Shown here in pieces: positions 516 to 63,520 of a stretch of DNA of 64,000 nt. Under the pieces are notes generated by a model. The model saw only the letters and a list, made by a program, of their open reading frames with translations, was not told where the DNA came from and did not search any database. Position 1 is the stretch's first letter. Each line of letters begins with the position of its first letter. Source of the DNA: Deroplatys truncata (taxonomy: Eukaryota > Arthropoda > Insecta > Mantodea > Mantidae); the NCBI GenBank assembly GCA_030765065.1, contig CM060990.1, positions 669,134,118 to 669,198,117 on the forward strand, written 5' to 3'. The position numbers and the translations under genes are program-made.

Positions 516-1387
516 TGTTGCGGTTTTGTTCGTGTTATCTTATTTGCTGAGCGCCTGTTATTGTTTTACTATTTTTCAATTCTGAGTTCTTTGTCATCCG
601 GCTAGCTAGTATTACTTAGTCGAGCAAATCTCTTGAATAGGGTGTGTAAACGGAAAGGAGTTGTTACTAAAAGTTAACACTGATAAAAGAATTTGTTTTT
701 ACACCTTTATTGCCGTCACACTTCATTAATTTCACATGTTTACTCTTGATACACGCCCGACTGAAACTGTTATATTTTCGAATGTAACTATAATCACTTA
801 TTTGCCGCACATTATTAATTCGAGTATTTCACATTTTGTAACTAACTTTACGACGCGAGAGATTCTGTAGAATTGCGTAACGTGTACTTCGTGAATGATT
901 CTGTTAAACTGCGCGACGTGTAACTCGTGAATGATTCTCTTAAACTGTGCGACGTGTAACGCGTGAATGATTCTCTTAAACTGTGAGTTACCTGCCCCCG
1001 GCTTTAGCATTTATACTCCCTCACCCCGATATGCCTAAACATTATAACAGAGCTGCTATTGGTTAATAAAGCGCGCCAACATTAGCGTTTATTTTTATAT
1101 CCAATAAAAATTACGAACACATATGCTCTAGGGTAGATATTCCCTCCATTTCTAAAGAAAAGCGCGCTACTCTGACGTCATGTGTTTGTCTCTTCTAATT
1201 GATAAACAACTCACCCCCTCGCTCATTGTTACCCGCTCCTATTGTCAGTTTCAGTGAGGCCGTGTAAACTTATTTCCTAATAATGCTTATAATTAACAAA
1301 CATCTCAAATCATTGTCATACAATAATGTTAATTTACACTACAATCATTCTGGCATTCACAGTGTTGTGATATAAAATACTGCCTCA
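516..1387 (-). mobile_element. LTR B1, solo, TSD AAAT
   Basis: A family B LTR in reverse orientation: read on the minus strand it starts TGAGGCAGTATTTT at 1387. The 4-bp duplication AAAT is at 512-515 and 1388-1391. It contains two CCAAT-type boxes (ATTGG near 1058, CCAAT near 1102) and the conserved block TCACCCCCTCGC near 1212. The left end keeps only degenerate PBS-like remains (GAGCGCC near 550). It was inserted into repeat D1. No internal retrotransposon region is attached, so it is a solo LTR. Confidence 0.85.
865..985. repeat. 36-bp tandem array inside LTR B1
   Basis: The phrase GTGAATGATTCT recurs at 891, 927 and 963, an exact 36-bp period, with a partial earlier unit. Each unit contains an (A/G)CGTGTA core. 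The equivalent array in B4 has four units with the same period. Confidence 0.85.
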
Positions 1388-27762: not shown

Positions 27763-27980
27763 TTATTGTATAAATTAATTATACTTTTAATAGACCTTAG
27801 CCGGGCCTAGGCAAGTTTTTAATGTAGAGTCAACTGAAAAATTTAACGCCACAGCCGGGATTTAAACACGGTTCTCCCGCTCTCCGTGCGGCTGCTCTAA
27901 CCATTGAGCTACTGTGACAACATGCCGGTGGGCCAGGCCAGGCTAAGGTCTATTAAAAGTATAGTTAATTTATACAATAA
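27763..27980. repeat. 218-bp palindrome with 45-bp arms around a SINE P copy
   Basis: Arms 27763-27807 and 27936-27980 are nearly perfect inverted repeats (shared GGCTAAGGTCTATTAAAAGT and TTAATTTATACAATAA). They enclose the reverse SINE P module, so the whole can fold into one long hairpin. Confidence 0.85.
27815..27935 (-). mobile_element. SINE P, reverse copy inside the palindrome
   Basis: Reversed, it reads GGCATGTTGTCACAGTAGCT, CAATGGTTAGAGCAGCCGCA, GTGTTTAAATCCCGGCTGTG. It is nearly the mirror of 28105-28222. Confidence 0.75.
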
Positions 27981-30197: not shown

Positions 30198-31492
30198 TAA
30201 AGTAAAAATTAAGTCGAGTTTAATTTATGGACTCCCTTTAACTGCTGTGGTCCATAGCGTGCTATTCTATATTGGGCGTGAAAGACAGGAAATTTTACTC
30301 AGAAGCCTCTTAATCAGACTTGAGGTTCTTTTACGTGCCGTAAATCTAGACACGGGACCACGAGGCAGTATTTTAACACTTGAATAATTTCAATTAAATT
30401 ATATAATATGTAAATTTAATAACAATCCGCCTTAAAGCAATATGTATGTAATAATTTATGAAAATGTATAACAGTCATTGAAAATGCTTATATTATTGTA
30501 AACATGTTCAATAATGTTATATGAATGCATTATGTAATTTGATAATGTAAGAGCTGTGAGTATAATAAGTTTAACGTTGCTATTAACGAGGTAACCTTGA
30601 GGCAATAATGAGTTTGAGAGTTTAAATGTTATAGTCATGATTAGAGCAACGATAATGTAAATTTTGTAACAGTTTAAAAATAGCCGATCAACAGCCAGAA
30701 AAAACTTTAATTAAATGCAGGTATTCTATTGGACTAGGATTAGCCAATCACAGACTTGAAATACAGAAGCTTACGGGTTTTGACGGTTGAAATATGTTCA
30801 GTTGTCTGCAGACCTTGGTAGTGACCGGATGGAAGAGGTGTTCTCTAAAGAAATATTACGTATTCGTGTGCATCTTAAAAATGTATATGCGTTAACAAAG
30901 TGCAAGTTTTTAAATTAAAGACTCTCACAGCTCTTAAAATCACTGTAGTGCTATTTAATTTGTGTCAAGGATTAATAAAAAGAAGTGAATTTAAGCTTAA
31001 AATCTGTGTAAGCCTACATTCTTGTCGTACCACGCCCTGATTAAGAGAAACGTGTCTCTAAAACAATACTGAAGCAGCCGAGGCAAACAAACATAAATAA
31101 TATCTATAGAAGCAGTTTAATAGCAAACAAAATATTTTTAAACTTGGAGCGTAACAGCAAAAATACATCTTCAAATCAGCTTTACATGCGTAGCAGCATG
31201 TTACGTAACAAATAATCCACTTCAAATTGGCTTACCAAGCGTGGTACAAATATTCAACAACTCCAACAACAATAAACTACAACAGTTGAAAAACAATACT
31301 TCAAGTTGGCTTCCCAAGCCTGAGGCTAATAAATTACGTAATCAAAACACCTTCTTCAACCATCGGCTTTACTTTCCTTCCAAAGAATGCCATGCTAAGG
31401 ATTTTTACGTCCGAAAAAATCCATGCCCTCCACCGGGTTTTAACCTTGGGAGTCAGAGGCTAGCGTGGTAACCACTACATCACGAAGGACTA
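30198..31492 (-). mobile_element. SINE E5, split by LTR A3
   Basis: The tail half (30198-30360: TTAATTTATGGACTCCC, TATTGGGCGTGAAAGAC) and head half (31363-31492: TAAGGATTTTTACGTCCG, CACCGGGTTTTAACC, GTAACCACTACATCACG) are parts of one reverse E element. Its target duplication CGACAGA is at 30191-30197 and 31493-31499. Confidence 0.88.
30361..31358 (+). mobile_element. LTR A3, solo, TSD ACCA, inside SINE E5
   Basis: 998 bp, starting (T>C)GAGGCAGTATTTT and ending CTTCTTCA, flanked by ACCA at 30357-30360 and 31359-31362. Because the SINE continues on both sides, both LTR boundaries are fixed independently of any other evidence. PBS-like units at 31227-31247 and 31306-31326 are therefore inside the LTR, before its terminal CA. 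Confidence 0.92.
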
Positions 31493-34189: not shown

Positions 34190-35208
34190 TGAGGCAGTAT
34201 TTTTAACACTTAAATGATTTTAATCAAATTATATAATATGTAAATTCAATAACAGCCCGCCTTAAAGCAATATGTGTATGTAACAATTTGTAAAATGCAT
34301 GTAACATCATTGCATATGCTTACATTATTGTAAACACGTTCAATAATGTTATGTGAATGCATTACGTAAATTAATAATGTAGGAGGTGTGAGAATAATAA
34401 GTTAAAAGTTGCTAACAATGAGGTAACCTTGAGGCAATAATGAGTTTGAGAGTTTAATAATACTACTTCTGATTATTGGAGTAACAATAATGTAACTTTA
34501 GTGACAGTTTATAAAATAGCCAATCAACAACCAGAAAATGCTTTAGTTAAAAGAAGGTATTCTATTGGATTAGGAATAGCCAAACAGAGACTTGATATAC
34601 AGAAATTTACAAGTTTAGGAGGTTGAAATCAGTTCAGTTGCCTGCAAACAGTGTTCCTAACCAGACGCAAAAAGTGTCCTCGAGAGATTTAATACGTATT
34701 CGTGTGAGACGAAAATTAAGTTTACCTGTTAAAAAGTGTAATTAATTAATAAAACGAATCTCACAGCTCTCTATATCAGTGAAGTGTTATTTAAATCGTG
34801 TCAAGCGTTAATAAAAGGAGTGAAGTAAAATTATAATCTGTGTAAGCCTACATTCTTGTCACATCACAACCCTGCCAAGAGATACGTGTCTCTAACAATA
34901 ATACTGACGCAGCCGAAGCAAACATAAATATATAATATTTAAAGAAGCAGTCGAATTACAAAGTTAATATTTTTTTAAACTTGGGGCAAAGGCCACCTGA
35001 AAGTACATTTGGGGCGAAGGCTACCGGAAACTGTTTACCATACGTGCGGTTGCAACTACTACAAGTTCGGCTCCCCAACAGTTGAAATATAATACAACTC
35101 CTTAAATACAAACTGCTTGAAATTGACGCCCAAAGCGTGATAAAAAATAACGTAACAAACCATCTTCTTCAAATTGGCGCAAAACGTGGGGCAAAAACTA
35201 CTTCTTCA
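34190..35208 (+). mobile_element. LTR A4, solo, TSD GAGT
   Basis: 1019 bp, TGAGGCAGTATTTTTAACAC to CTTCTTCA, flanked by GAGT at 34186-34189 and 35209-35212. The PBS-like series is at 35066-35080 (TTCGGCTCCCCAACA), 35123-35140 and 35174-35192 (TTGGCGCAAAACGTGGGGC). The last two units begin right after CTTGA or CTTCA copies of the LTR terminus. CCAAT box near 34519 and AATAAA near 34810. Confidence 0.93.
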
Positions 35209-38263: not shown

Positions 38264-39447
38264 TGCAATAACATTATAGTTTGTTTGTTTGTATTTGTTA
38301 GCCCCACATTTGGGAGCCAATTTGAGAATGGTATAATGTTAATGTTATTTATTTAACATTATTGTAGCCCCACGTTGTGGTGCCAATTTGCGGTGGTATA
38401 CTTGTTATATTTATATTATTTCTTGTTGAGCCCCACGTTTGGGAAGCCAATTTGCGACGGTTTTACTTATAATGTTTGTGTATGTGTGTTTATTTCACGT
38501 GGTGATGCCATTTTGTGACGTAATTCTTTGTTAGGTTTGTAGCTCCATCTGGTGTTAGCAATTTGCGGTAGTATTAGTGTTTGTTTGAAAGAATGCTACT
38601 GTTATTTTATTTAATTTTGGTTTACTGTCCTCCGGCTAACTATGATCTTTTCGGTCGAGCACTTCTCTTTATACAGGTTGTGTAAACGGAAAGGAATCTT
38701 TTATCCAAAGATAACACTGATGAAGGAATTTGTTTTACACTTTTTATTGTCGAACACATTCACTATCACAATTTACACATTGATCTTGACACCCGCCAAA
38801 CTGAAACTGTTATAATAACTTCTTACTGATCAATTTTAATTCACGTACTTCAACCTTTTGTATAATTAACTTTACAACACTTGAGAATTTTCCTAACTCT
38901 GCTACGCGTAACTTGCGAATCGATAGCCGACGTGTAATATTTCTGCTGAACTGAAGGCGACGTGTATCATACAAATATTTTCGACGAACTGACGGACTGA
39001 AGACGACGTGTAGTGTACAAAGATTTTAGATGAACTGACGGGGTCTTTACCTCTAACCTACCTTTTTTACTCCTTCACCCAGATATGCCTAAAGATTATA
39101 ACTGAGCTGCAATTGGCTAATAAAACGCGCCAACATTAGCGTCTATTTTTATATCCAATGAAAATTATGATTATGAATACATATGCTCTAGGGAAATGTT
39201 CCAGAAGATTCTAAAGGAAAACGCGCCAACATTACGTAACTTCCTCGTTTTCAATAATGATAAACAGCTCACCCCCTCGCTGCATTATTGCACGCTATTA
39301 TTGTCAGTTTCAGTAAGGCAGTATAAACTTACTTCCCAACAATAATTACAATCAACAAAATCTCAAATCAATGTCACATAAAAATGCATATTCATATTAC
39401 AATCATTATTTACATTTAAATAATTTGTGATACAAATTACTGCATCA
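38264..39447 (-). mobile_element. LTR B2, solo, TSD AATT, longest PBS-like array
   Basis: 1184 bp. Read on the minus strand it runs from TGATGCAGTAATTTG (39447) to GTTATTGCA (38264). AATT lies at 38260-38263 and 39448-39451. The last ~300 bp is a series of five PBS-like units; it is the longest LTR in the set because it has the most units. CCAAT boxes lie near 39112 and 39156. Confidence 0.92.
38301..38561 (-). repeat. tandem PBS-like array in LTR B2 (five units)
   Basis: Plus-strand units GCCCCACATTTGGGAGCCAA (38301), GCCCCACGTTGTGGTGCCAA (38367), GCCCCACGTTTGGGAAGCCA (38430), CACGTGGTGATGCCA (38496) and AGCTCCATCTGGTGTTAGCA (38541). Start-to-start distances are about 66, 63, 63 and 48 bp. 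Each resembles the tRNA-Lys(CUU) 3' end GCCCCACGTTGGGCGCCA, so on the minus (element) strand each is a PBS look-alike. Decay increases away from the LTR terminus. Confidence 0.85.
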
Positions 39448-39879: not shown

Positions 39880-40951
39880 TGAGACAGTATTTTAATACCT
39901 GAATAATTTCAATTGTATTTTATAATAAGTAAATTCAATAACAGCCCGCCTTGAAACAATATATATATGTAATAATTATTTAAATTGTATGTAACAGTCA
40001 TTGCAAATGCTTATTTTTATTGTAAACATGTTTTATTAATGTTATGTGAATACATTATATACTTTAATAATGCAAGAGCTGTGAGAATAATAAGTTTTGT
40101 GTTGCTAACAATGAGGTAATAATGAGATAACCTTGTAGCAATGATTAGTTAGTGTGTTTGAAAAGTTGCCAGTCATGATTATAACAAAGATAAGGTTAAA
40201 TTCAGTAACAGTTTAAAATTAGCCAATCAAAAGCATGGAAAAGGTTTAAGTAAAGTGTAGATATTCTATTGTACTATAATTAGCCAATCAGAGATTTGAA
40301 ATACCGAAGCTTACAGGTTGAACCGTTGAAATCTTATTCAGTTGCTGGCAAGCCTTTGTAGTGAACAGATGTAGGATGTGTTCTCTACGAGTGAATCGTA
40401 AAATAAGTATACGCGCTAAGTGAAAGTATTGAAGATTCTCACAGTTCTTAAAAAGTGTAGTGCTTTATAAAAATGTGCAAGAATTAATAAAGAAGTGAAT
40501 TTTAAAAAGTTATAATCTGTGATGTCTACATTCTTGCTGCACCGCACCCTGGATAAGAAAAACATGTTTCTAAAGTAAGACTGACGCAGCCGAGGCAAAT
40601 TCAAACATAAATAATATATAGAAGTAGTGTTAATAACAAAGTTAAATATTATAGTGTAAAACTTGGGGTGTAATAACAAAAACACATCTTGAAATCAGCT
40701 TCTCGTACGTAGCAGCATATTGTGTAATAACAGTAACTATTACGTAATCAATAAAATTCACACTGACGCCCAAAGCGTGTTTTTAGGAACTCTTTAAATG
40801 CAACTAAATGAATATTACGTAAAATACAATTACGTAAGCCTATCTTCTTCAAGTTTAAACATTACGTTCACATACTTCAAGTTGGCTCCCATACGTGGGG
40901 CAGATATAAAATAATTTACGTAATTTATTACGAGAAGCAAACACCTCCTCA
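39880..40951 (+). mobile_element. LTR A7, solo, TSD ACGT
   Basis: 1072 bp, TGAGACAGTATTTTAATACC to CCTCCTCA, flanked by ACGT at 39876-39879 and 40952-40955. PBS-like units lie near 40763 (CTGACGCCCAAAGCGTG) and at 40882-40901 (TTGGCTCCCATACGTGGGGC). The latter follows ACTTCAAG. Confidence 0.92.
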
Positions 40952-42121: not shown

Positions 42122-43070
42122 TGAAGAAGTTATTTTGTTGTATTGTTATTTTTGCACCACTCTTTGGGCGCCAATTTGAAGTAGGTTATATTGAAGGAGT
42201 TGCATTATATTTCAACTGTTGGGAGCCGAACTTGAAATTCGTTGGAATCACAGGTATAGTACCCGCTTTCCGGTAGCCTTTGCCCCCCAAAAATGTTTAA
42301 AAATATTAACTTTAAATATTATATATTCATGTTTGCCTCGGCTACGTCAGTATTATTGTTAGAGACATGTTTCTCTTTGCAGGGTTGTGGTGCGACTGAA
42401 GAATGTAGGCTTACACAGATTATAATTTTACTTCACTCCTTTTATTAATGCTTGAAAGGATTTAAATAACACGTCACTGATATTGAAAGCTGTGAGATTC
42501 TTTTTATTAATTACTTGCACTTTTTAACACGTAAACTATTTTTCGTCTCACATTGAATACATATTAAACTTCTCGAGGACGCATTTTCGCGTCCAGTTAT
42601 GAGCACTGTCTACAAGCAACTGAACTGATTTCTACCGCCTAAATTTGTAAATTTCTGTATTTCAAGTCTCTGATCGGCTAATCCTACTCCAATGGAATAC
42701 CCTCATTTAAATAAAGCTTTTTTCTGGTTGTTGATTGGCTATTTTTAAACTGACTCAAAATTTATATTATTGTTGCTCCAATAATGACTAGTAGCATTAT
42801 TAAACATTCAAATTCATTATTGTCTCAAGGTTACCTCATTGTTAGCAACGTCTAACCTATTATTCTCACAGCTCCTACATTATTAAATTACGTAATACAT
42901 TCACATAACATTATTGAACATGTATACAATAATAGAAACATTTACAATGACTGTAATATACGCTTTTTATATCTTGTTACATACACATATTGCTTTAAGG
43001 CGGGCTGTTATTGAATTTATATATTATATAATTAGACTGAAATTATTTAAGTGTTAAAAATACTGTCTCA
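42122..43070 (-). mobile_element. LTR A6, solo, TSD AAAT
   Basis: 949 bp in reverse orientation; minus-strand TGAGACAGTATTTTTAACAC at 43070 and CTTCTTCA at 42122. AAAT lies at 42118-42121 and 43071-43074. PBS-like units: 42154-42174 (minus strand TTGGCGCCCAAAGAGTGGTG) and 42213-42231. Confidence 0.92.
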
Positions 43071-49474: not shown

Positions 49475-50449
49475 TGAAGTATGATATTTGTAGTTGGTTG
49501 TTTAGAAGATGCTTCATGTTTATCTGCACCATGTATGAGAGCCAATTTGTCGCGGTCACTTCGTGTTATCTTTTGCTGGGCGCCTATTATTGTATTACTA
49601 CTTTGAATTTTGGGTTCATTGTCCTCCGGCTAGCTATTATTTCTCGGTCAAGCAAATCTCTTGAACAAGGTGTGTAAACGGAAAGTATTTGTTACTCAAA
49701 GATAACACTGATAAGAGAATTTGTTTTTATCACTTTTATTACCTTCACAATTAATTAAGTTCACATATTGACTCTTGATACACGCCAGACTGAAACTGTT
49801 ATATTTTCTAATATCACTATAATCACATATTTACTGCACATTATTAATTCACGTGTTTCACATTTATAACAAACTTTAAGACGCGAGAGATTCTGTAGAA
49901 TTGCGACGTGTAACTCGCGAACGATTCTGATGAACTAAGCGACGTTTAACTTCTGAATGATTCTGTTGGACTCAGCGACGTGTAACGCGTGGATGATTTT
50001 GTTGAACTGGTCGACGTATTACACGCGAATGCTTCAGTTGAACTGTCGAAATCTGCCTCTGACTTTAGCTTTTTATATTCCCACACCCCGATATGCCTAA
50101 AGATTATAACCGAGCTGCTATTGGTTAATAAAACGCACCAACATTAGCGTCTATTTTTTATATCCAATCAAAATTACGAACACAAATGCTCTAGGGAAAA
50201 TATTCCCGCTATTTCCAAGAAAAGCGCGCCAATCTGACGCCATTTGTTTGTCTCTTCTAATTAATATTCAACTCACCCCCTCGCTCATTTTTATCCGCTC
50301 TTATTGTCAGTTTCAGTGAGGTCGTGTAAACTTATTTCCTAACAATGCATATAATTAACAAACATCTCAAATCAATATCATAAAATAATGCTTATTTACA
50401 TTACAATCACTCTGGCATTTACATTATTGTGATACAAATTACTGCCAGA
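49475..50449 (-). mobile_element. LTR B4, solo, TSD ATTA
   Basis: 975 bp. The right end reads ATTACTGCCAGA (for ACTGCCTCA) and the left TGAAGTATG. ATTA lies at 49471-49474 and 50450-50453. A PBS-like unit is at 49526-49545 (GCACCATGTATGAGAGCCAA), with a fragment CTGGGCGCC near 49576. A clean four-unit 36-bp array at 49904-50045 has CGACGT exactly at 49904, 49940, 49976 and 50012. Confidence 0.9.
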
Positions 50450-57638: not shown

Positions 57639-58721
57639 TGAAGGTGGTTTAATGTTGTTTATTTAACATTATTGTGTAGCCCCACGTTGTTGTAGACAAT
57701 TTGAAGTGGTATACTTGTAATGTTATATTTAATTTGTTGAGCCCCACGTTTGGGAGCCAATTTGCGATGGTAAATTTATAATGTTATTTGTGTATGTGCT
57801 TACTCAACGTGGTGAAGCCATTTTGTGACGTGATTCTTTGTTAGGTTTGTAGCTCCATCTAGTGTTAGCAATTTGCGGCAGTATTAGTTTTTGTTTGAAA
57901 GAATGCTACTTTTATTTTATTTAATTTTGTTTCACTGTCCTCCGGCTAGCTATGATCTTTTTGGGTCGAGCACTTCTCTTTATACAGGTTGTGTAAACGG
58001 AAAGGAATCTTCTATCCAAAGATAACACTGATGAAGGAATTTGTTTTACACTTTTATTGTCGAACACAGTCACTATCACATTTACACATTGATCTAGACA
58101 CTCGCCAAACTGAAACTGTTATAACAACTTCTTACTGATCACTTTTAATTCACGTACTTCAACCTTTTGTATAATTAACTTTACCATACTTGAGATTTTT
58201 CATAACTCTTATACGCGTAACTTGCGAATCGATAGCCGACGTGTATCATACAAATATTTTCGACGAACTGACGGACTGAAGGCGACGTGTAATGTACAAA
58301 GAATTTTGATGAACTGACGGACTCTACCTCAAACCTAGTCCTTTTATACTCATACACCCCGATATGCCTAAAGATTATATTTGAGCTACAATTGGCTAAT
58401 AAAACGTGCCAACATTAGCGTCTATTTTTATATCCAATGAAAATTATGAATACATATGCTCTAGGTAAATGTTCCAGAAGATTCTAAAGGAAAACGCGCC
58501 AACATTACGTAACTTCCTCGTTTCCAATAATGATAAACAGCTCACCCCCTCGCTGCATTATTGCACGCTATTATTGTCAGTTTCAGTAAGGCCGTATAAA
58601 CTTACTTCCAAACAATAATTACAATCAACAAACATTTCAAATCAATGTCACATAAAAATGCATATTCATACTATAATCACTCTTTACATTTAAATAATTT
58701 ATGATACAAATTACTGCATCA
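57639..58721 (-). mobile_element. LTR B3, solo, TSD GACT
   Basis: 1083 bp. GACT lies at 57635-57638 and 58722-58725. Minus-strand start TGATGCAGTAATTTG, end CACCTTCA. PBS-like units: 57679-57699 (GCCCCACGTTGTTGTAGACA), 57741-57760 (GCCCCACGTTTGGGAGCCAA), about 57805, and 57851-57871. Close relative of B2, with one fewer unit. Confidence 0.92.
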
Positions 58722-60792: not shown

Positions 60793-61769
60793 TGAGGCAG
60801 TATTTTTAACACTTAAATAATTTCAGTCTAATTATATAATATATATATTCAATAACAGGCCGCCTTAAAGCAATATGTGTATGTAACAATATATAAAAAG
60901 TATATATTACAGTCATTGTATATATGTAATAATGTTATCTGAATGTATTACCAATTTAATAATGTAGGAGCTGTGAGAATAATAGGTTAAAAGTTGCTAA
61001 CAATGAGGTAACATTGAGGCAATAATGAGTAAGAAAGTGTAATAATGTTACTAGTCATTCTTGGAGCAACAATCATGTAATTTTTGTGACAGTTTATAAA
61101 ATAGCCAATCAATAACCAGAAAAAAGCTTAAGTTAAATAAAAGTATTCTATTGGATTAGGAATAGCCAATCAGAGACTTAAAATACAGAAATTTACAAAT
61201 TTAGGCGGTAGAAATCAAGTCAGTTGCTTGTAGACAGTGCTCATAACTGGACGCGTTGGTTGTAGACAGTGTTCCTAACCTGACGCGAGATGTGTCCTCG
61301 AGAAATTTAATACGTATTCGTGTGAGACGAAAATAGTTTACGTGTTGAAAAGTGCAAGTAATTAATAAAAGAATCTCACAGCTCTCTATATCAGTGAAGT
61401 GTTATTTAAACTGTGTCAAGGATTAATAAGTGTAGTGAAGTAAAAACTATAATCTGTGTAAGCCTACATTCTTAGCGGCACTACTCCTTGCAAAGAAATC
61501 CATGTCTCTAACAATAATACTGACGCAGCCGAGGCAAACATAAATATATAATATTTAAAGAAACAGTCAAATTACAAAGTTAATATTTTTAAACTTGGGG
61601 CAAAGGCCACCGGAAAGTACATTTGGGACGAAGGCTACCGGAAACTTTTTTACTATACGTGCGGTTGCAACTACTTCAAGTTCGGCTCCCCAACAGTCGA
61701 AATATAACACATCTTCAAATTGGCGCAAAACGTGGGGCAAATAATTATAGAAGAAACTAACCACCTTCA
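60793..61769 (+). mobile_element. LTR A5, solo, TSD TACT
   Basis: 977 bp, TGAGGCAGTATTTTTAACAC to CCACCTTCA, flanked by TACT at 60789-60792 and 61770-61773. PBS-like units at 61681-61696 (TTCGGCTCCCCAACAG) and 61720-61738 (TTGGCGCAAAACGTGGGGC, preceded by CTTCAAA). A ~35-bp local duplication (TAGACAGTG-TC-TAAC) lies at 61230-61280. Confidence 0.93.
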
Positions 61770-62962: not shown

Positions 62963-63262
62963 TTAAGCTTTCCGTAGACTCCTTGTCATGGCAGACAGTT
63001 CTACAAAGCAAATCCACTGCCATACGCCATGCCCGCGGTCCACTCGCTTGAACCTTTCATCCTGAAACTTCATCTTCTTCAACGGATTACCTTCCCTTTT
63101 GTAGGGCTTATACCCCAAAGGATTTACAAGCCAATGCATTGGGTCAGTAGCCTGTGGAGGAGCAAGCAAAATCGGAATTATAGCACATCCGGATTGGGTA
63201 TTCAGCCCAATACTTTGTGTCAGTAGCCTGTCGAGGCGCAAGCAAACTCTAGATATTAGCAT
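62963..63262 (-). CDS. unidentified ORF (99 aa), partly minisatellite
   Basis: The N-terminal third is made of the 76-bp minisatellite. The rest (PLGYKPYKREGNPLKKMKFQ, RFKRVDRGHGVWQWICF, ELSAMTRSL) has protein-like composition with basic and aromatic residues and could be a decayed transposon gene. No family recognised and no start I can defend. Confidence 0.25.
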   Translation of the reverse strand: MLISRVCLRLDRLLTQSIGLNTQSGCAIIPILLAPPQATDPMHWLVNPLGYKPYKREGNPLKKMKFQDERFKRVDRGHGVWQWICFVELSAMTRSLRKA

Positions 63263-63520
63263 ATCCAGGATGGATGATCAGCCCAATGTCTTGTGTCAGT
63301 AGTCTGTCGAGGAACAAGCAAGCTCTGGATTATAGCATATCCAAGATGTGTATTCAGCCCAACGTCTTGTGTCAGTAGTCTGTCGAGGAACAAGCAAACT
63401 CAGGATTATAGCATATCCAGGATGGGTATTCAGCCCAATGTCTTGTGTCAGTGGCCTGTCGAGGAGCAAGCAAACTCTGGATGATAGCATATACAGGATG
63501 GATGATCAGCCCAATGCCTG
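63127..63520. repeat. minisatellite, 76-bp unit, about 5.2 copies
   Basis: CAGCCCAA-type phrase at 63203, 63279, 63355, 63431 and 63507: exactly 76 bp each time. Each unit has TTGTGTCAGTAG-CTGTCGAGG, CAAGCAAACTC and TATAGCATATCCAGGATG (abbreviated). 76 is not a multiple of three, so it does not encode a protein repeat. Confidence 0.95.

Follow-up and report, generated by a model that had tools for sequence, protein, structure and literature searches.

LTRs with PBS-like units in the window

The 64,000-nucleotide stretch of the Deroplatys truncata genome analyzed here (GenBank assembly GCA_030765065.1, contig CM060990.1, positions 669,134,118 to 669,198,117; hereafter "the window") exhibits two families of solo long terminal repeats (LTRs), A (TGAGGCAG...) and B (TGATGCAG...), each present in several copies. 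Inside many of these LTRs lie short units resembling the primer-binding site (PBS) for tRNA-Lys(CUU). Comparison with related insertions elsewhere in the genome makes it highly probable that these LTRs derive from elements carrying a tandem series of spacer + PBS modules, and that variable priming among those PBSs moves the LTR end. The LTRs and their units, in window coordinates, are the following.

34190..35208, plus strand: A4, solo LTR of family A, TGAGGC...CTTCTTCA, target duplication GAGT
35174..35192, plus strand: PBS-like unit in A4, TTGGCGCAAAACGTGGGGC, 16 bases upstream of the LTR end; the best unit of A4
30361..31358, plus strand: A3, solo LTR with a CG start, target duplication ACCA, inserted within another dispersed repeat
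near 31225-31245 and 31308-31328, plus strand: two weak unit relics in A3 (duplex energy)
39880..40951, plus strand: A5, solo LTR, target duplication ACGT
40882-40901, plus strand: unit in A5 (scanner and duplex energy)
42122..43070, minus strand: A6, solo LTR, target duplication ATTT
near 42152-42172, minus strand: degenerate unit in A6 (duplex energy)
60793..61769, plus strand: A7, solo LTR, target duplication TACT
61720-61738, plus strand: unit in A7 (scanner and duplex energy)
516..1387, minus strand: B1, solo LTR of 872 bases, terminus CCGCAACA, target duplication ATTT
38264..39447, minus strand: B2, solo LTR, target duplication AATT
38430-38450, 38367-38386 and 38301-38320, minus strand: three units in B2
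49475..50449, minus strand: B3, solo LTR with a TC start, target duplication TAAT
49526-49545, minus strand: degenerate unit in B3
57639..58721, minus strand: B4, solo LTR, target duplication AGTC
57741-57760 and 57679-57699, minus strand: two units in B4

LTR ends and target duplications were determined by script for A3-A7, B1, B2 and B4, and by eye for B3. An earlier reading of the window from its letters alone (the original prediction) had named eight of these LTRs as bounded by matching 4-bp target duplications, and all eight are. It was right that A3 splits another repeat. The TG...CA-type ends it described are found in most of them, the starts of A3 and B3 being the exceptions.

A strict scanner finds one unit each in A4, A5, A7 and B3, three in B2 and two in B4, and none in A3, A6 and B1. 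The predicted duplex energy with the 3' end of tRNA-Lys ranges from -25.5 to -38.3 kcal/mol for the main units of A4, A5, A7, B2 and B4 and is -28.6 kcal/mol for one unit of A6; the minima for the LTR bodies, taken as background, are -14.0 to -18.4 kcal/mol in A3-A7 and -20.3 to -21.6 kcal/mol in B1-B4. Both A3 relics (-18.7 and -20.0 kcal/mol) and older relics of A4, A5 and A7 (-18.0 to -19.1 kcal/mol) are weak and near background. The B3 unit is weak as well: at -16.6 kcal/mol it is the most degenerate among 13 forms for which the energy was calculated; a second relic in B3 reaches -23.4 kcal/mol. Five matches to TTGGCTCCCAAACGTGGGGC (up to three mismatches) occur in the window, against none in 100 shuffles. 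The predicted range of one to five units per LTR is seen among related insertions, with five in the LTR of L104 and six in that of L013; within the window, clear units number one to three per LTR, and the A3 relics are weak. B1 (861-985) and B3 (49882-50044) also contain 36-base tandem units, which are unlike the PBS units.

Host tRNA-Lys(CUU) and the PBS genome-wide

Genome-wide comparisons were made within this one species, in its 4.29-Gb assembly of 818 contigs. tRNA-Lys(CUU) genes with 100% identity to the query are present in the host (365 matches), and the matches listed all lie within one tandem array on contig 9 (G000:C9:191137150-191204696; loci L021-L030), about 68 kb long with a spacing of about 144 bases. 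For some genes of this array the predicted anticodon is UUU, and two are predicted to be tRNA-Asn. The commonest 3' end of the tRNA-Lys genes, GCCCCACGTTGGGCG followed by CCA, is the complement of TGGCGCCCAACGTGGGGC. The host's own tRNA-Lys genes thus match the motif that the original prediction had likened to a tRNA-Lys(CUU) PBS.

The exact 18-base PBS TGGCGCCCAACGTGGGGC has 5,432 copies in the genome, and its reversed control has none. Allowing one mismatch raises the count to 7,688, so that all 54 single-substitution forms together account for 2,256; such an excess of the exact 18-mer is as expected of a site renewed from tRNA. The wider form TTGGCNCCCAAACGTGGGGC (up to three mismatches) is matched at 50,289 sites, compared with 178 when the pattern is reversed. 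Over 261,527 bases the unit scanner reports 344 units, a few of them antisense artefacts caused by the near-palindromic core, and 7 in the reversed sequence. With the tRNA 3' end, the exact PBS has a predicted duplex energy of -42.2 kcal/mol and the two commonest variants, TTGGCTCCCAAACG and TTGGCACCCAGAACG, about -32 kcal/mol; the lowest value among 533 LTR-body 20-mers is -21.4 kcal/mol.

Units at and inside the LTR ends of full-length insertions

Twenty-four full-length candidates were examined: L009-L016, with paired CTCCC-type units; E1-E3 (L031/L032, L033/L034 and L036/L035), with paired exact units; L037/L038, L069/L070 and L079/L080; and those ten of the first 20 exact-PBS loci that lead into an internal domain. 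Five were dropped, namely L037/L038 (three LTRs in a row), L045 (internal-like sequence after the 3' LTR), L079/L080 (internal-like sequence after both copies), L039 (3' LTR not seen in one piece) and L042 (not seen in three pieces), and 19 were kept. At L017-L020 tandem units are present and no LTR pair was found. A script recovered the target duplications of 15 of the kept elements (L010-L016, L040, L041, L043, L046, L047, L057, L058 and L069); those of the others are ACCG for L009 and, by eye, TACA, TTAC and ATAA for E1, E2 and E3.

If the units derive from PBSs, the PBS of full-length copies should be of the same kind, and a unit of this kind indeed lies 2-3 bases beyond the LTR 3' end in all 19 kept insertions. 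These boundary units comprise ten exact copies, five of the form CAGAACG, one CAGGACG, one GCGCCACCAACG and two with a single change. At least one more unit lies inside the LTR in 18 of the 19 (one to six each, 35 in total), L047 having none. In a set of 26 LTRs with 52 units, CA is found 1-3 bases upstream of 49 of the units. Two or three units separate the LTR from the internal domain in eight of the 19 insertions (L009, L014, E1, L040, L041, L043, L046 and L057); the count for E1 rests on a stretch of at most 700 bases, in which the internal-domain marker was not found. The usual single PBS outside the LTR is therefore not the arrangement of these elements. The two LTRs of one element, a comparison suggested by the original prediction, agree in unit number in 18 of 19 elements (in windows of 161-330 bases), the exception being E1. 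Neither the frequent presence of several PBS units outside the LTR nor the unequal LTR ends of E1 had been foreseen.

LTR ends at differing units in related insertions

Comparison of kin insertions reveals the same module outside one LTR and inside another. In L040 (target duplication ATAT) the LTR stops before an exact PBS followed by the spacer agttaaag. In L071 (AAAG), where the preceding spacer is nearly identical to that of L040, this exact PBS and its agttaaag spacer are inside the LTR, the end of which lies beyond them. The LTR of A4 shares with its relatives a common tail up to ...ACCATCTTCTTCA. One of them, L119 (TATT), has its LTR end at CTTCTTCA, exactly where A4 continues with its unit and 16 further bases; another, L110 (no checked target duplication), exhibits an exact PBS at the place of the A4 unit. 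Thirteen of the 40 relatives listed, picked because the match stopped near the unit, were read downstream: a unit occupies the position of the A4 unit in 11 of them, in varied states and with varied following sequence, and none is registered in L119 and L120. Family B behaves alike. The end of B1 (CCGCAACA, followed by ATTT) is the point where B3 runs on as CCGCGACA-AATTGGCTCTCATACATGGTGC, a PBS-like unit, and the end of B4 (CACCTTCA, followed by AGTC) is the point where B2 runs on to its third unit.

In retroviruses the site at which the tRNA primes sets the 3' end of U5 (the unique 5' region, which closes the LTR). Since the ends of kin LTRs differ, each can be read as marking the unit from which priming took place. 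This supports the view that the priming site has shifted along a row of PBSs and that the upstream ones were swallowed, and with it the growth model put forward in the original prediction; the module outside the L040 LTR and inside the L071 LTR is among the findings in favour of that model.

In the reading we favour, these are Ty3/Gypsy-like elements primed by the host tRNA-Lys(CUU), with tandem modules at their 5' end, each consisting of an LTR-terminus-like spacer ending in CA and, two or three bases on, a PBS. Reverse transcription can start at more than one PBS in the series. The PBS chosen fixes the 3' end of U5, and all upstream PBSs and spacers enter both new LTRs, as the comparison of insertions shows. 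Priming far downstream gives a longer LTR, and upstream priming leaves spare PBS units before the internal domain. Swallowed units would be freed from matching the tRNA and would then decay.

Two-base-insert forms next to the internal domain

Units with a two-base insert (CCC-AG-AACG, GCC-AC-CAACG, CCC-AG-GACG) recur adjoining the internal domain, and the first unit after the 5' LTR is of this kind in L010-L013, L015, L016 and L069. CCC-AG-AACG alone has 3,898 exact copies in the genome. Since swallowing requires another unit downstream, the innermost CAGAACG form is expected to be absent from LTRs; none of the 35 LTR-internal units is of the CAGAACG kind. The original prediction had anticipated neither the position of the two-base-insert unit nor its absence inside the LTRs sampled.

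The site lists for the CAGAACG, CTCCC and exact forms, which comprise the first sites of contig 1, give a similar picture. Same-strand pairs 2-9 kb apart are formed by 2 of 100 CAGAACG sites and by 16 of 100 CTCCC-type sites (p = 0.0008). Among 47 CAGAACG sites, a listed exact or CTCCC-form unit lies within 200 bases upstream in 15 and downstream in none. Of the exact sites listed, 23 of 100 have another same-strand exact site within 350 bases. Compared by hand with the normal T-stem/acceptor layout of a tRNA, the CAGAACG form, which might have a primer tRNA of its own, is a misfit.

How the modules may multiply

The series of L009 (ACCG) reads unit, spacer, exact unit, spacer, unit, spacer, CAGAACG, and its first two spacers are alike. 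Its LTR ends directly before the exact unit, and two more units follow that PBS. This order is the outcome expected if the tail of plus-strand strong-stop DNA, copied from the tRNA, anneals to a minus-strand PBS lying further upstream. L042, of which the 3' LTR was not found, exhibits the same order. The two LTRs of E1 are alike as far as an exact PBS and part beyond it, with one extra module in the 3' LTR. The LTRs of L015, 99.9% identical elsewhere, disagree over the final dozen bases ahead of the boundary. A tandem array with a period of about 100 bases was also observed in L009 (6489-8822), its start roughly coinciding with the 3' LTR end.

Among 52 units of 26 LTRs, a copy of the LTR's own terminus (similarity of at least 0.7) precedes 5 of 8 exact units and 3 of 44 others. 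The corresponding figures are 5/8 against 4/44 at a similarity of 0.6, and 3/8 against 1/44 at 0.8. L104, L091 and L071 were picked by eye for this test and recency is a confounder, so that we take the association as supporting only. The solo LTR L104 (GTAT) is an example: two of its five units are exact, and each of these two follows a copy of the terminus.

L009 and E1 suggest that register slips at plus-strand transfer duplicate a terminus + PBS module. New modules probably arise in this way: the plus-strand strong-stop tail, which reproduces the 3' end of the tRNA exactly, would mispair during transfer with the wrong PBS of the minus strand, thereby adding or dropping one spacer + PBS module; L009 and E1 would be the best examples. 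We tentatively advance a broader possibility, which may or may not hold: that the LTR end is rewritten at each reverse transcription, the extent of swallowing depending on which of the tandem PBSs is primed, that out-of-register transfer adds or removes modules at joints that are exact tRNA copies, and that the whole acts as a ratchet by which LTRs lengthen and shorten over the generations of an element and U5 ends are shuffled between co-packaged RNAs.

Weighing the evidence

Several points weigh against priming at varying PBSs as the source of these LTR ends. The reading rests on genomic insertions compared with one another. Eighteen of the 19 kept elements come from contig 1, and the exception, L069, was chosen because its LTR appeared to include a module. 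The position of the E1 boundary rests on similarity (28 of 30 bases), and L011, L012 and L015 exhibit small differences near the LTR end (24, 23 and 20 of 30 bases match). Of eight solo LTR ends tested, four have a target duplication (L119, L104, L071 and L091); the flanks of L078 do not match, and the LTR start was not found for L110, L074 and L055. The share of exact boundary units (10/19) is biased upward, because ten of the elements (E1-E3 and seven others) were found through the exact PBS. The remaining nine boundary units are not exact copies of the tRNA; with a PBS renewed from tRNA in each cycle, inexact forms should vanish, yet they persist. For the register slip, E1 and L009 are the only direct examples. 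By eye, the spacers flanking the boundary PBS differ in L040, L041 and L057, and recombination between arrays probably also shuffles modules.

Selection might have maintained several units inside the LTRs because they are useful in themselves, for example in capturing additional tRNA or in packaging the RNA. All but one of the 19 full-length elements retain at least one LTR-internal unit, and many unit forms are still predicted to pair strongly with the tRNA. However, L047 has inserted without any unit and its LTRs are identical over the 249 bases compared, and the units differ widely in how many there are, how they are spaced and how well they are preserved, as by-products would. We consider selection rather unlikely.

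Alternatively, unequal recombination or template switching between LTRs would duplicate the LTR/PBS junction, making the arrays ordinary and the choice of primer irrelevant. The spacer order shuffled among elements and a duplication of about 137 bases (97% identity) in L013 fit this explanation, and exchange at repeated PBS units would look alike. Yet it leaves unexplained why all 19 LTR ends lie directly before a unit, and why kin insertions with perfect target duplications end at different units; the excess of own-terminus copies before exact units (5/8 against 3/44) also speaks against it. As a full account it is quite improbable, while recombination may well contribute to the duplication step.

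That the LTRs are mis-bounded, or the units a satellite located there by chance, is hardly credible and was rejected for the sampled loci: a full-length copy was not seen in the window and L051 and L056 (2 of 37 exact-PBS loci) carry a single PBS in another context, probably in other elements, but target duplications flank the LTRs and a B-type LTR body lay directly upstream of the CTCCC-type unit at 20 of 20 loci (15 distinct places, several picked for being paired or tandem), so that the unrelated satellite considered in the original prediction is not borne out.

Element type and known systems

By coordinates, E1 and E2 span about 8-9 kb. A domain search of four stretches gave matches in two and none in the other two: a 1.4-kb internal piece of E1 matches RVT_1 (E-value = 9.1e-9, above the cut-off), and a 1.4-kb internal piece of E2 matches Asp_protease (E-value = 1.5e-5; 25.5 bits, cut-off 26) and RVP_2 (E-value = 2.3e-4, above the cut-off). 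From the domain matches in these two pieces we would place the elements in Ty3/Gypsy. Seven elements have internal domains of 2.0-2.3 kb, too short for gag-pol, and are presumably non-autonomous. The LTR pairs of the short elements are 97.1-99.9% identical, which indicates recent activity; the window copies diverge more among themselves. A shared purine-rich sequence, agtggggcata, a candidate polypurine tract, lies upstream of the 3' LTR in all seven of these short elements, slightly further off in L014.

Gypsy-type elements use tRNA-Lys. The present elements resemble Ty3/Gypsy (Metaviridae) in their mostly TG...CA ends, 4-bp target duplications, PBS 2-3 bases after the LTR, and the aspartic protease and reverse transcriptase matches of the two longer elements. 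They differ in having tandem PBS modules inside and after the LTR and a shifting LTR 3' end. Terminal-repeat retrotransposons in miniature and large retrotransposon derivatives (TRIM/LARD), such as the ant PbTRIM (PMC3532108), likewise have a short internal domain, LTRs, a PBS and 4-bp target duplications; here, in contrast, there are several PBS units, part of them inside the LTR. The nearest precedent found is that of human immunodeficiency virus type 1 (HIV-1) revertants, in which multiple PBSs can arise during replication in culture when the PBS has been altered for another tRNA (PMC1084362). That is a laboratory anomaly, whereas here there are thousands of genomic sites and the units are fixed in LTRs. 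PBS arrays inside LTRs are not described in the available parts of PMC3532108, PMC3212995, PMC1084362, PMC3832253 and PMC11302176, and no account of them was found in the literature searched, in which bioRxiv preprints and the majority of subscription journals were not represented.

The length and the ends of an LTR are usually taken as fixed features of a family, and differences between LTRs as a measure of age. In the present elements the LTR 3' end looks like a choice of priming site, recorded many times in the genome. They would offer a natural system for the choice of one PBS among several and for the register of plus-strand transfer, and would provide a mechanism by which LTRs grow. For elements of this kind, estimated ages and the consensus LTR of a family may be misleading.

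Other features of the window

At positions 63131-63516 a unit of 76 bases is repeated in tandem 5.1 times, with 84% matches. On the minus strand, a tRNA-Ser(GGA) is called at 27846-27919 within a dispersed repeat, other copies of which lie near 2657, 21022 and 28084; given this dispersed repeat, the call is probably the head of a short interspersed nuclear element (SINE).
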